A DNA stretch of 64,000 nucleotides from the NCBI GenBank assembly GCA_029265975.1, contig JAJUGN010000003.1:18738-82737 (forward strand), in the 5' to 3' direction. This DNA is from Clostridiales bacterium (GTDB taxonomy: Bacteria > Bacillota > Clostridia > Oscillospirales > Oscillospiraceae). This document shows, piece by piece, positions 9,920 to 64,000 of this stretch. The position numbers were made by a program, and so were the translations under genes. The notes beneath the pieces were generated by a model, which was given only the letters and a program-made list of their open reading frames with translations, was not told the DNA's origin and did not search any database. Position 1 is the first letter of the stretch, and every line of letters starts with the position of its first letter.

Positions 9920-10165
9920 TATCCCGCCCTTTAACAGGCGGGATACAGACTGTCAAAAAAGCCCTTTGGGCTTTTTTGACAAGGTGGGTTGCATGCCGGG
10001 CGCTCTGCCGCGCCCGTCATGAGAGGTGTCATTTCCGACGTACACGCCGCCGGAAATGACAGATTTGACTTTGTTTACGCCATTGGTGGCGGAAATTCTG
10101 CGAAGCTTTTTTGCTGTAAACAAGTTCTTTGACAAGCTGTATCCCGCCCTTTAACAGGCGGGATA
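9920..10165. repeat. flanking hairpin duplication around copy A
   Basis: 9920-9945 identical to 10140-10165. Confidence 0.95.
9946..10139. mobile_element. ~194-bp hairpin-inserting MITE-like element, copy A
   Basis: ends CAGACTGTCAAA...TTTGACAAGCTG; flanked by perfect 26-bp direct duplication TATCCCGCCCTTTAACAGGCGGGATA at 9920-9945 and 10140-10165, itself a perfect 9-bp-stem hairpin. Confidence 0.85.
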
Positions 10166-14744: not shown

Positions 14745-14870
14745 GCCCCCTTGTCTTTCAGGCGAAGAAAGGACAACCAAGGAGGCAGGTTACTGACGGT
14801 CTCGGACCGCGCCCGGACTACCAACCGGGCAGTGTTTTTGTCTTCGCGCATATATAGCTGCGCATATTCT
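14745..14870 (-). ncRNA. yjdF-type (azaaromatic) riboswitch candidate
   Basis: minus-strand leader GAAGACAAAAACACTGCCCGGTTGGTAGTCCGGGCGCGGTCCGAGACCGTCAGTAACCTGCCTCCTTGGTTGTCC; GCCCGG/CCGGGC and CGGTC/GACCG stems directly upstream of yjdF; edges approximate. Confidence 0.65.
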
Positions 14871-14906
14871 ACTACATATGCCTTTCAAATGCAAGTGGCG
14901 CTTTTC

Positions 14907-15719
14907 TCACACTCTGTCGCTCATCGTTTCAAGCAGATGAGCGGTTGATGTCAGTTCTTCCAGGGAATCCGTGATTTCGGCAAACGCCGTTGAAAAGCTC
15001 GCCGTAATCTCATTCGTTTTTTCATTGGTAGAGTGTATCTCATCAACCGATTTGTTTATCGCGTTCAGCATCGTATATATTTTGTTAACCGATTCCCTGC
15101 TTGTTTCTGAAAGCTGCCTTATTTCCTGCGCTATTACGTTAAAGCCTTTGCCGACGGTATCTGACCTCGCGGCCTCTATCGCAGCGTTTATGCCCAGAAG
15201 GTCGGTCTGGGAGGCGACCTGATTTATGAAATTGAATATCTTGTCCGTGCCGCCGACGTTTCTTTTCGCCTCGTCGATTTTTTGCGCGGTTTCATCGTTC
15301 ATTGCCAGAACCGACTGAAGCTTCGACGAAAATTCATTCGACACTCCGGATATCTCCTTTATCGCCGTTGAAAGCGTGCGGGAAAGCTCAAGAAGCTCCT
15401 CGCGCCTCTTGAGGCTTTTTCCTATGACGATACAGCCCTCGACCTTGCCCGATTCCCCTTTTACGGGTACGCTGTAAGACTTCAGTGCGGCGCTGGGAAA
15501 ATAGTCGATCACAGGCCTTGATTCCTTTATTGCGCGGGACACCCCTCCGGTGGGAGAAATCGGCGTTCCCGTATAGTCCTGCCCGTCGTTTCTAACGTTG
15601 CTCAGAAATTTCTCCGTATCGGTCACCGCGAACGACGCCTCGTTGTCAAAAAATTCTTTAAGGTACGGTATAAGAAGGTTAAAAGCGTTCAGCACCTCGT
15701 TGTCGGAAATTCTCTCCAT
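14907..15719 (-). CDS. soluble chemoreceptor-like (short MCP signalling domain) protein, paralog 1
   Basis: FNFINQVASQTDLLGINAAIEAARSDTVGKGFNVIAQEIRQLSETSRES MCP hairpin; no TM or HAMP seen. Confidence 0.85.
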   Translation of the reverse strand: MERISDNEVLNAFNLLIPYLKEFFDNEASFAVTDTEKFLSNVRNDGQDYTGTPISPTGGVSRAIKESRPVIDYFPSAALKSYSVPVKGESGKVEGCIVIGKSLKRREELLELSRTLSTAIKEISGVSNEFSSKLQSVLAMNDETAQKIDEAKRNVGGTDKIFNFINQVASQTDLLGINAAIEAARSDTVGKGFNVIAQEIRQLSETSRESVNKIYTMLNAINKSVDEIHSTNEKTNEITASFSTAFAEITDSLEELTSTAHLLETMSDRV

Positions 15720-15745
15720 TATTTATCGCATCCAGTCATCTAGTA

Positions 15746-16570
15746 TTATACTCTGTCAGCCATCGCTTCCAGGAGCTTTGCGCTTTCGCTCAGCCTTTCT
15801 ACGGATTCGGTTATTTCCAAAAAGGCCGTTTTGAAAGTTTCGGTAATTTCCTGAGTTTTCGTTGTCGAATGGCATATCTCTTCGACGGATTTATTTATTG
15901 TGCTAAGCATCAGGCTAATCTTATCCACCGATTCCCTGCTGGTTTCCGAAAGATCCCTAATTTCCTGCGCTATTACGCCGAAGCCTTTGCCCACGGACTC
16001 GGTCCTCGCGGCCTCTATCGCAGCGTTTATACCGAGGAGATCGGTCTGGGAGGAAACCTGATGGATAAAATTGAATATTTTATCGGTGCTGCTGGCGTTT
16101 TTTTGAGCTTCCTCTATTTTTTTATTTGTTTCTCTGTTCATCTCTACGACCGAATTGAGCTTCTCGGAAAACTCGTTCGAGATATTCACGATTTCCCCGA
16201 TGGCCGTCGAAAGCTCTCTGGAAAGCTCGAGCACATCCTCGCGCTTTTTTAGGCTCTTTCCTATGCAGATGCAGCCCTCCACCCTTCCGGACTCGCCTTT
16301 GACCGGCAGGCTGTAAGACTTCATCGCGTCCCCGAACATCTCTTTGGGAATATAGCTTATTACGTTTCTTCCCTCGGCTATCGCTTTTGCGATCCCGCCC
16401 TTGGCAGGTATTGGCGTGCCGGTGTAGCTTTTTCCGTCGGTTCTGACGTTTATAATAAACTTCTCCGTGTCGGTTACAGCTATCGAAACCTCATTGTCGA
16501 ACAGCTCCCGCAGATATGGAACCAGAAGGTTGAATGCGTTGAGCACTTCGTTTTCCGATACAATTTCCAA
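15746..16570 (-). CDS. soluble chemoreceptor-like protein, paralog 2
   Basis: FNFIHQVSSQTDLLGINAAIEAARTESVGKGFGVIAQEIRDLSETSRES; shared N-terminal domain. Confidence 0.85.
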   Translation of the reverse strand: MEIVSENEVLNAFNLLVPYLRELFDNEVSIAVTDTEKFIINVRTDGKSYTGTPIPAKGGIAKAIAEGRNVISYIPKEMFGDAMKSYSLPVKGESGRVEGCICIGKSLKKREDVLELSRELSTAIGEIVNISNEFSEKLNSVVEMNRETNKKIEEAQKNASSTDKIFNFIHQVSSQTDLLGINAAIEAARTESVGKGFGVIAQEIRDLSETSRESVDKISLMLSTINKSVEEICHSTTKTQEITETFKTAFLEITESVERLSESAKLLEAMADRV

Positions 16571-16640
16571 TATTCTTCGCTCCCGATCGTATTTTTTCTT
16601 TCTCGCATGCGCCCTCCGGACGCATGTTGTGCGCTCGCTT

Positions 16641-17474
16641 TCAGATCTTGTCCGCCATGACTTCGAGAAGGTGCGCGTTTTCGCTCAGCTTTTCCACAGA
16701 AGCGGCGATATCCGAAAAAGCAGTTGAAAACGTGGCTGTTATCTCCTGTGTCATGGCCGTGGTCGTGCATATATCCTCAACCGACTTGTTTATTGCGTTC
16801 AGCATCGTATAGATCTTGTCGACCGATTCCCTGCTGGTTTCCGAAAGCTTCCTTATTTCCTGAGCTATGACCTTGAAGCCCCTGCCCTCGGCGCCCGCCC
16901 TCGTAGCCTCTATGGAGGCGTTGATCCCGAGGAGATCCGTCTGCGAGGTCACGTCGTTTATGAAGCTGAATATCTTATCCGTGCTGCTGACGTTGTTCTG
17001 CGCCTCGCTGACTTTTTTCGCGGTTTCCTTGTTCATTTCCACAACCGTCTGGAGCTTGGCTGCGAAATCGTTCGCGACCTGCAGGATGTTTTTCAGCGCC
17101 ATGGACAGGTTCTTGGACAGCTCTAGAAGCTCCTCCCTTTTTTTCAGGCTTTTTGCGACGCAGAGACAGCCCTCCACCTTTCCGTTAGGCCCTTTTACGG
17201 GTATCGCGTACGATTTTATCGCCGTGCCGTAGAGTTCCTTCGGTATATTGCTTATAATCGTGCGGCCCTCTTTGATCGCTTTATAGGCTCCTCCTCCGCT
17301 CGGTATGGGATCTCCCGGATCGCTCCTGAGTGTAAACGCAGGACAGCCTACATTTTTGAGGTAGACTTCCGTATCGCATATCGCTATGGTCGCTTCGTTA
17401 TCGAAAAAGACCTGAAGATACGGTATTACAAGGTTAAAAGCATTCAATACCTCGTTGTTTGAAATATTTTCCAT
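16641..17474 (-). CDS. soluble chemoreceptor-like protein, paralog 3
   Basis: MENISNNEVLNAFN start; FSFINDVTSQTDLLGINASIEATRAGAEGRGFKVIAQEIRKLSETSRES. Confidence 0.85.
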   Translation of the reverse strand: MENISNNEVLNAFNLVIPYLQVFFDNEATIAICDTEVYLKNVGCPAFTLRSDPGDPIPSGGGAYKAIKEGRTIISNIPKELYGTAIKSYAIPVKGPNGKVEGCLCVAKSLKKREELLELSKNLSMALKNILQVANDFAAKLQTVVEMNKETAKKVSEAQNNVSSTDKIFSFINDVTSQTDLLGINASIEATRAGAEGRGFKVIAQEIRKLSETSRESVDKIYTMLNAINKSVEDICTTTAMTQEITATFSTAFSDIAASVEKLSENAHLLEVMADKI

Positions 17475-17659
17475 ACATTTTTCTCCTGTCATACATGGTT
17501 TGATGTGCCCGGCGGCTCTCCCAATCCGGCCGAGCCCTAATAACCCTCTGTTCTGTTTAATTTTATCGTCATTAAACGTATTTTGTTTAGCCGCAAAACG
17601 TATTATCGTCATTTTTTATAAAATTGCCGTTGATTCTTTTTGCGTTTGCCCATACAAAA

Positions 17660-17700
17660 ATACGGCGGCGCAGAGGGCACATGGCCCGGCGCCGCCGTAT
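17660..17700. terminator. GC-rich hairpin, likely terminator
   Basis: ATACGGCGGCGC...GCGCCGCCGTAT long stem between paralogs 3 and 4. Confidence 0.65.
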
Positions 17701-17745
17701 TTGCATATTTATTGATTTTTTTGGCTTTCCTGATAAAAATCCCTT

Positions 17746-18564
17746 TTACACCTTGTCGGCCATTACCTCGAGGGTTTTAGCGTTTTCACTCAGTTTCTCA
17801 ACTGAAGACGCTATGTCGGCAAAGGCTTTTGAGAAGCTCTCGGTGATTTCCTGAGTCTTTTCCGTTGTCGAGCATATCTCGTCGACCGACTTGTTTATAT
17901 CGCTCAGCATCGCGTATATTTTGTCCACCGATTCCCTGCTGGTTTCGGAGAGCTTCCTTATTTCCTGGGCAATGACCTTGAAGCCCCTGCCCTCGGCGCC
18001 CGCCCTCGTGGCCTCTATCGAGGCGTTTATCCCGAGGAGATCGGTCTGCGAGGTCACCTTGTTTATGAGCTTGAAAATCTTGTCCGTGTCGCTCACGCTG
18101 CTGTGCGCCTGCTCAATCTTCTGGGCGGTTTCCGCATTCATGGCCACCACGCTCTGAAGCTTTGCCGAAAAGTCATTCGCAACCTCGGAAATCTGCTGGA
18201 GAGCCGCCGAAAGGCTTTTTGAAAGCGCCTGCAGCTCCTCACGCCTTTTGAGGCTCTTTCCGACGATGATGCAGCCGTCGACTTCACCGTTTTCTCCCTT
18301 TATCGGAACGCTGTATGACTTGAGCGCCATCGAGGGAAAATAATCGATCACGGGCTGTCCCTGCTTTATCGCCCTGGAAGCGGCGCCGGTAGGGGAAAGC
18401 GGCGTATTGTTGTAGCTGTCGCCCGTGCCGTCGTTCCTCACGTTGTGCAGGAACTTCTCCCTGTCTGTTACCGCAAACGAAGCCTCGTTGTCGAAGAAAA
18501 TATTAAGATAGGGTATAAGCATGTCAAAGGCGTTTATTATTTCATTGTCAGAAACTTTTTTCAT
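17746..18564 (-). CDS. soluble chemoreceptor-like protein, paralog 4
   Basis: FKLINKVTSQTDLLGINASIEATRAGAEGRGFKVIAQEIRKLSETSRES. Confidence 0.85.
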   Translation of the reverse strand: MKKVSDNEIINAFDMLIPYLNIFFDNEASFAVTDREKFLHNVRNDGTGDSYNNTPLSPTGAASRAIKQGQPVIDYFPSMALKSYSVPIKGENGEVDGCIIVGKSLKRREELQALSKSLSAALQQISEVANDFSAKLQSVVAMNAETAQKIEQAHSSVSDTDKIFKLINKVTSQTDLLGINASIEATRAGAEGRGFKVIAQEIRKLSETSRESVDKIYAMLSDINKSVDEICSTTEKTQEITESFSKAFADIASSVEKLSENAKTLEVMADKV

Positions 18565-18729
18565 GGCTTAACACATCCAAACATTTATTTTTTAATCTTT
18601 CCGCCCTTATTTTCTTCGTCAAAAAAACGTCATGCTTGAGTCTGTTTTGCGATTTTAGCAAGATAATTATAATATTTGGAAGCGTTTACAACCATCTTTT
18701 ATATTTCGACAAAAATCAACTCGGCTGCT

Positions 18730-21618: not shown

Positions 21619-21863
21619 AGGCCGCCGTTTTGTAACGGCGGCCCCAGCTTGTCAAAAAACTTGTTTACAGCAAAAAAGCTTCGCAGAATTTCCGCCGCGA
21701 ATGGCTGAAACAAAGTCAAATCTGTCATTTCCGGCGGCGTGTACGTCGGAAATGACACCTCTCATGACGGGTGCGGCAGAGCGTCCGTCATTCAACCCCC
21801 TTGTCAAAAAAGCCCAAAGGACTTTTTTGACAGTCTGAGGCCGCCGTTTTGTAACGGCGGCCC
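21619..21863. repeat. flanking hairpin duplication around copy B
   Basis: 21619-21644 identical to 21838-21863; each contains a 10-bp stem, 4-nt loop hairpin. Confidence 0.95.
21645..21837. mobile_element. hairpin-inserting MITE-like element, copy B (opposite orientation to A)
   Basis: CAGCTTGTCAAA...TTTGACAGTCTG; perfect 26-bp duplication AGGCCGCCGTTTTGTAACGGCGGCCC at 21619-21644 and 21838-21863. Confidence 0.88.
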
Positions 21864-38023: not shown

Positions 38024-38270
38024 GAGCGCCCGAACCTTCCGTTCGGGCGCTCAGCTTGTCAAAGAACTTGTTTACAGCAAAAAAGCTTCGCAGAATTTCC
38101 GCCACGAATGGCGGAAAAAAAGCCAAATCTGTCATTTCCGGCGGCGTGTACGTCGGAAATGACACCTCTCATGACGGGCGCGGCGGAGCGTCCGTCATTA
38201 AACCCCCTTGTCAAAAAAGCCCAAATGGCTTTTTTGACAGTCTGAGCGCCCGAACCTTCCGTTCGGGCGC
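38024..38270. repeat. flanking hairpin duplication around copy C
   Basis: 27-bp direct duplication (one base of boundary ambiguity with the element). Confidence 0.93.
38051..38244. mobile_element. hairpin-inserting MITE-like element, copy C
   Basis: (T)CAGCTTGTCAAA...TTTTGACAGTCTG; duplication GAGCGCCCGAACCTTCCGTTCGGGCGC at 38024-38050 and 38244-38270, the likely znuA terminator hairpin. Confidence 0.88.
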
Positions 38271-57541: not shown

Positions 57542-57813
57542 AACCGCCCTGCGAACGCCCGAAGGCGTTCACAGGGCGGTGCAGACTGTCGAAGAAATTG
57601 TTTACAGCAAGAAAGATTCGCAGAACTTCCGCAACGAATGGCGGAAAAAAAGTCAAATCTGTCATTTCCGGCGGCGTGTAAATCGGAAATGACACCTCTC
57701 ATGACGGGCGCGGCAGAGCGGCCGTCATTTAACCCCCTTGTCAAAAAAGCCCAAAGGGCTTTTTTGACAGTTTCAACCGCCCTGCGAACGCCCGAATGCG
57801 TTCACAGAGCGGT
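57542..57813. repeat. 39-bp hairpin duplication around copy D
   Basis: AACCGCCCTGCGAACGCCCGAAGGCGTTCACAGGGCGGT versus AACCGCCCTGCGAACGCCCGAATGCGTTCACAGAGCGGT. Confidence 0.92.
57581..57774. mobile_element. hairpin-inserting MITE-like element, copy D
   Basis: GCAGACTGTCGAAG...TTTTTTGACAGTTTC; flanked by a 39-bp hairpin at 57542-57580 and 57775-57813 with two mismatches. Confidence 0.85.
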
Positions 57814-63783: not shown

Positions 63784-63814
63784 AAAAACATTCAGGGGGC
63801 ATTTCATGCCCCCT

Positions 63815-64000
63815 CAGACTGTCAAAAAAGCCCAAAGGGCTTTTTTGACAGGGGGGTTAAATGACGGCCGCTCTGCCGCGCCCGTCATGAGAGGTGTCAT
63901 TTCCGACGTACACGCCGCCGGAAATGACAGATTTGACTTTGTTTCCGCCATTCGCGGCGGAAATTCTGCGAAGCTTTTTTGCTGTAAACAAGTTCTTTGA
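63815..64000. mobile_element. hairpin-inserting MITE-like element, copy E, truncated by the window edge
   Basis: CAGACTGTCAAAAAAGCCCAAAGGGCTTTTTTGACA... same orientation as A; left hairpin AGGGGGCAT TTC ATGCCCCCT at 63794-63814. Confidence 0.85.

Follow-up and report, generated by a model that had tools for sequence, protein, structure and literature searches.

A 194-bp sequence lying between two identical copies of a complete hairpin raises the question of whether it is a mobile element and how the same hairpin came to stand on both of its sides. It was found in the window, a 64,000-nt stretch (positions 18,738-82,737 of contig JAJUGN010000003.1, here C9) of the Clostridiales bacterium assembly GCA_029265975.1 (here G000), which comprises 1.97 Mb in 75 contigs, is 89% complete and is broken at repeats. 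A sequence-only reading of the window had described five such elements, A to E, as a non-autonomous mobile family whose target is structure and not sequence, and whose target duplication is the hairpin itself. The evidence from 64 loci, from a collinear but empty congener region and from base-exact empty sites of autonomous relatives supports that description. We put at roughly 0.92 the probability that the elements are high-copy MITEs derived from an IS1182-family insertion sequence of this genus, mobilised in trans and inserted at the feet of a cruciform hairpin, with fill-in creating the second copy.

Hairpin-flanked copies in the window and in the genome

The position of A between identical hairpins is borne out, and the coordinates first given for A to E are correct to within one base (C ends at 38243). 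Element E is incomplete because contig C9 ends at position 82737, which is window position 64000. The hairpins flanking B, C and D are each duplicated and each different from those at the other loci. The two element ends listed for A are imperfect inverted repeats, the left-end hairpin of the element is flanked by A6/T6, and Rfam gives no match above the gathering score in any of the window elements.

Table 1. Elements A to E and their flanking hairpins, in window coordinates.
Feature	Position	Strand	Remarks
A, target hairpin, left copy	9920..9945	.	26-bp exact direct repeat, a 9-bp-stem hairpin, TATCCCGCCCTTTAACAGGCGGGATA
A, IS1182-type MITE, 194 bp	9946..10139	+	ends CAGACTGTCAAAAAA / CAGCTTGTCAAAGAA
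A, subterminal left-end hairpin	9951..9981	.	TGTCAAAAAAGCCC-ttt-GGGCTTTTTTGACA, terminator-like on both strands
A, internal hairpin	10027..10061	.	TGTCATTTCCGACG...CGCCGGAAATGACA, family search pattern; occurs in other genera too, at about 80% identity
A, target hairpin, right copy	10140..10165	.	identical to left copy, TATCCCGCCCTTTAACAGGCGGGATA
B, target hairpin copy	21619..21644	.	26 bp, pair identical
B, element	21645..21837	-	
B, target hairpin copy, second side	21838..21863	.	
C, target hairpin copy	38024..38050	.	27 bp, pair identical; single homologous hairpin without element in G004
C, element	38051..38243	-	
C, target hairpin copy, second side	38244..38270	.	
D, target hairpin copy	57542..57580	.	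39 bp
D, element	57581..57774	-	
D, target hairpin copy, second side	57775..57813	.	37/39 identical, 2 mismatches
E, target hairpin, left copy	63794..63814	.	orthologous single G004 hairpin with inverted loop
E, element, truncated by contig end	63815..64000	+	

With the internal hairpin as search pattern and up to 3 mismatches allowed, about 129 copies are found in G000, or about one per 15 kb, against 0 for the reversed-pattern control; their pairwise median identity is 92%. The flanks were analysed for the 64 non-redundant copies with at least 60 bp readable on both sides, among which the element ends are conserved. The score for direct repeats abutting the element has a median of 22.5, versus 3 for shuffled flank pairs, and direct repeats of 23-39 bp are present in 43 of the 64 copies while shuffled flanks yield almost none. 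These 43 duplications total 1245 bp with 32 mismatches (2.6%), and nearly all of them are complete, locus-specific hairpins (stem 7-16 bp, loop 3-10) that have no common sequence. Furthermore, a hairpin search of the flanks that was run independently of the direct repeats shows that 62/64 copies directly adjoin a stem of 8 bp or longer, on either side or on both, compared with 6/1000 random window positions, and the gap between element and stem foot is 0-2 nt. Duplication length and hairpin length correlate at 0.95, a value that is partly built in, since the hairpin was sought inside the duplication, and that we do not count as proof. A chance origin of the element/hairpin pattern is excluded. 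The expectation that a locus-specific hairpin should be duplicated around most copies in the genome thus holds. Being 194 bp long and non-coding, with terminal inverted repeats, target duplications and some 129 copies, the element is a MITE.

The copies scored as lacking a repeat are of several kinds. In four of them (L026, L052, L068 and L073) the two flanks in fact hold the same hairpin, the copies having diverged. The hairpins at the two sides are unrelated in about five, as expected from recombination or nested insertion; eight adjoin a hairpin at just one side, and two adjoin no hairpin. Copies with unpaired, unmatched or no hairpins need later recombination or deletion to be accounted for.

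Many G000 contigs (C24, C25, C33, C43 and C67, for example) stop inside a copy of the element, and the family is probably responsible for much of the fragmentation of this assembly. The internal hairpin region is also about 80% conserved at many loci of another family of the order (L149-L155, G042), where no obvious hairpin duplications lie nearby; the core may predate the ends or serve a separate function.

Autonomous IS1182 relatives and empty sites

A DDE transposase of the IS1182 type (NF033551, or PF13751 with PF05598), such as the autonomous relatives carry, could not be encoded in the 194 bp of the element. No IS1182 transposase was found in G000 (89% complete and broken at repeats), where PF13751 and PF01609 likewise had no match. 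Because of this short length and the lack of an IS1182 gene in its genome, the element is classed as an IS1182 derivative and not as an insertion sequence in its own right. The IS1182 gene of G000 may have been lost or may be unassembled, and it is from relatives that mobilisation in trans is deduced.

PF13751, the IS1182-type DDE domain, has matches in 78/300 genomes from the taxonomic family to which G000 belongs. Complete IS1182 elements with a matching terminal motif are flanked by whole-hairpin duplications of 31 bp (L350, G184), 29 bp (L335, G481) and 30 bp (L334, G540), and a further one with this motif, L360 in G060, by a hairpin duplication of about 33 bp with its loop inverted. The relatives' transposases match NCBIfam NF033551 (IS1182) at E<=3e-115, well over the cut-off, and carry PF05598, PF13751 and PF01609. 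Annotated plasmid IS1182 elements have duplications of 27 and 47 bp in Enterococcus faecium, 21 bp in E. faecalis and 30 bp in Sutcliffiella horikoshii. Hairpin duplication is thus recorded for L350, L335, L334, L365, L366, L369 and L370; over all IS1182 relatives (family relatives, congeners, and Enterococcus and Sutcliffiella plasmids) it spans 21-47 bp, and at 17 IS1182 loci, those on plasmids included, the end of the motif directly abuts a hairpin. The longer autonomous relative with the same ends that the sequence-only reading had suggested looking for has therefore been found.

The link to the MITE is closest within the genus. Congener G004 has a multi-copy IS1182 whose N-terminus recurs at contig ends, where it breaks the assembly. 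Its left end, CAGCCTGTCAAAAAAGC, agrees with that of the MITE at 16/17 positions and is followed by a hairpin comparable to the left-end hairpin of the MITE. At five contig-end sites (C45, C37, C9, C11 and C13 of G004) this end lies directly against five different hairpins; an additional decayed IS1182 copy in that genome also has its end against a hairpin. The right end of the IS1182 of G003, a genome that carries the same MITE as G000, is CAGCCTGTCAAAGAAC; it agrees with the MITE end CAGCTTGTCAAAGAAC at 15/16 positions and abuts a hairpin. From these two comparisons, the left and the right end of the MITE separately match the IS1182 ends of the genus, so that MITE and autonomous transposon have their ends in common.

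IS1182-like ends and the duplication of whole hairpins were also observed in three other MITE families: one of 214 bp in G002 (L156, L159), one of about 191 bp in G004 (L161, L162, L306, L307) and one of 163 bp in G018 (L313, L314). When end motifs without the MITE interior were sought in G000, G003 and G004, each genome gave chance matches. Apart from these, G000 has only MITE variants and a motif on contig C20, G003 has a solo left end at C61, and G004 has another MITE family, likewise with hairpin duplications.

Over its whole length the window is collinear with G004, at about 80% identity, and not one of the five elements is present there. Locus C of G004 holds one hairpin, GAGCGCCCGAGCGGACAGCTCGGGCGCT, a homologue of the hairpin duplicated in G000, and locus E one homologous hairpin with an inverted loop. 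One hairpin each is also present at A and B, unrelated or diverged in sequence and with no clear homology, and no clear hairpin is seen at D in the collinear comparison. The comparison fits a single ancestral hairpin that insertion doubled, with C and E the only decisive loci; none of the empty loci has two pre-existing hairpins.

The plasmid-borne relatives provide sharper comparisons, for which the query was made of the two flanks joined through a single hairpin. For the Enterococcus IS1182 with the 27-bp duplication, the one-hairpin empty site is matched exactly over 286/286 nt in NZ_CP102071.1; for that with the 47-bp duplication, it is matched exactly over 234/234 nt in all 15 plasmids among the matches listed. 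These base-exact empty sites are the strongest evidence that the second hairpin was created by the insertion. Whole-hairpin duplication is thus seen in the genome and in its relatives, and the 43 natural cases in one genome, with the exact empty sites of two relatives, indicate that the target is chosen by the shape of the DNA and not by its sequence.

Insertion mechanism and competing explanations

The outcome is most simply pictured as follows. An IS1182 DDE transposase (DUF772 + DDE_Tnp_1_6), acting in trans, would recognise the ~15-bp element ends and join the two 3' ends of the element to the target at both 5' feet of a perfect hairpin. This hairpin would most likely be extruded as a cruciform, such that the cuts are close in space and one hairpin length apart in sequence; fill-in of the two single-stranded hairpins would then give two identical copies of the full hairpin, one at either end of the element. 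Wan et al. 2017 (PMC5678879) drew such a cruciform 5'-feet attack with hairpin duplication as a hypothetical pathway b, and proposed pathway a, with loss of the hairpin, for IS1272; hairpin deletion was reported for TnSha1 by Furi et al. 2016 (PMC4923244). The elements described here behave as pathway b, with the cruciform intermediate, attack at its feet and fill-in as the steps that we infer. Cleavage at the hairpin base and fill-in had also been proposed from the window sequence: the duplication of whole hairpins matches that proposal, while its chemical step stays conditional. The 43 duplications and the exact empty sites make the cruciform-foot model, a hypothetical pathway for IS1272, directly testable.

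The same element and outcome could instead arise if the target, like that of single-strand transposons, were a hairpin folded from single-stranded DNA, either of the lagging strand or within a transcription bubble. Single-stranded DNA forms hairpins readily and the sites are mostly transcription terminators; nevertheless, we consider this unlikely, as a two-sided duplication requires cuts on both strands, the relatives' transposase is a DDE enzyme and not an HUH single-strand transposase, and duplication of the whole hairpin is what is expected when both 5' feet are attacked. That the two hairpins are older than the element, which would have inserted between tandem terminators or carried the hairpins along, is hardly credible. 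The few copies flanked by unrelated hairpins would suit such an origin, but each locus has hairpins of its own, mostly identical to one another, G004 has one hairpin and not two wherever homology is readable, which contradicts a pre-existing pair at C and E, and the empty sites of the two autonomous relatives contradict it as well.

A different mobiliser was also considered, namely an IS5-type (NF033578-like) transposase at the end of contig C20, the only DUF772 transposase detected in G000 and one with an end-like motif, GAGTCTGTCAAAAATT, upstream. This candidate was rejected as very improbable: hairpin duplications surround 0/80 of its relatives, none of the order-level loci has both matching ends, and the IS1182 ends and duplications fit far better. 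Finally, the element might be a module that benefits the host, kept as a bidirectional terminator between convergent genes with mobility secondary, as its terminator-like left-end hairpin and its strong placement at 3' gene ends could suggest. We regard this as improbable, given that the left-end hairpin is common to the IS1182 of the genus, where its role could be to protect the transposase gene against read-in, that the copies are as alike as in a mobile family, and that G004 has no copy at the place of any of the five in the window.

The C20 locus itself (L120, positions 1-540) holds a partial transposase gene beside a tRNA-Ser terminator, and a related degraded IS5-type copy in G004 is also found beside a tRNA terminator.

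Insertion at cruciform feet, our preferred reading, may have left a further trace. For the MITE pairs L019, L021 and L024, the stems of the two hairpin copies match, while their loops are reverse complements of each other; L019 is among the copies with a repeat, and L021 and L024 are among those scored as repeat-less. The IS1182 pair L360 is likewise inverted in its loop, as is the hairpin of element E relative to its G004 orthologue. A tentative explanation is that single-stranded hairpins are paired in the transposition complex and that the repair polymerase switches between the copies; loop inversion, if it does date from the insertion event, would record a paired-hairpin intermediate as a sequence fossil. 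Spontaneous inversion of hairpin loops occurs in other genomes and is a possible alternative to an origin at insertion. Orthologous hairpins of the window and G004 provided no comparable pairs for a background rate of loop inversion.

Terminator targets and relation to known systems

Insertions are mostly at the 3' ends of genes. By a simple ORF model, 32/63 sites lie between convergent genes, versus 9/62 of the other gaps of the same loci (Fisher p=2e-5), and at convergent sites a median of 21 bp separates the stop codon from the hairpin region. The outer flank is rich in A on the preceding side and rich in T on the following side, the arrangement of intrinsic terminators. Together, the convergent placement, the short stop-codon distance and these flanks indicate that the target is typically a terminator. 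With intrinsic terminators as the usual targets, duplication would keep one terminator on each side of the insert. We propose that insertions are consequently nearly neutral, which would permit about one copy per 15 kb. An element that doubles a terminator and does not destroy it suggests a possible route to ~130 copies in 2 Mb.

Among known systems, the nearest are the hairpin-duplicating IS1182 elements (the E. faecium plasmid element of NC_017962 and NZ_CP014530, and those of G184, G481 and G540), which have the same or a similar terminal motif, target type, duplication and insertion at the stem foot, but are ~1.5 kb long with a transposase gene, whereas the MITE has 194 bp and ~130 copies. 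Group IIC introns and IS1397-type elements also prefer hairpins, terminators or palindromic units; the former, however, are retroelements, and IS1397 inserts in the loop of a palindromic unit with a short duplication. Target duplications of MITEs are usually short and of fixed length. Bacterial MITEs such as MITEAba12 (PMC6382973) are likewise short and non-coding, with terminal inverted repeats, target duplication and many copies, but here the length of the duplication follows the hairpin. IS1272 and TnSha1, staphylococcal members of the IS1182 family, also target hairpins of any sequence, often terminators (PMC5678879, PMC4923244). According to these reports, they delete the hairpin or replace it and produce no target duplication, unlike the elements described here, most copies of which keep a hairpin on both sides.

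The sequence-only reading had named no precedent for a hairpin-long duplication around a ~194-bp element. The duplication is real; hairpin targeting irrespective of sequence has been reported for some IS1182 members and the duplication has already been modelled, and the reading had missed both this and the family identity. New with respect to the published accounts that we found are the scale, the exact empty sites and the regularity of whole-hairpin duplication for part of the IS1182 family. The assignment of this new and very abundant MITE to the IS1182 type, a known family, is well supported. The ISfinder family table reportedly gives IS1182 duplications of 0-60 bp, and hairpin duplication by IS1182 may be recorded already in curated databases. 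Element ends flanked by hairpins offer a simple signature for finding more such elements, repeats of which break assemblies.

Elsewhere in the window, an azaaromatic (yjdF) riboswitch lies at 14753-14851 on the minus strand (Rfam RF01764, 86 bits). Positions 14900-18600 contain several tandem paralogous stretches with multiple G004 cross-matches at 67-76% identity, which suggests a duplicated gene array.
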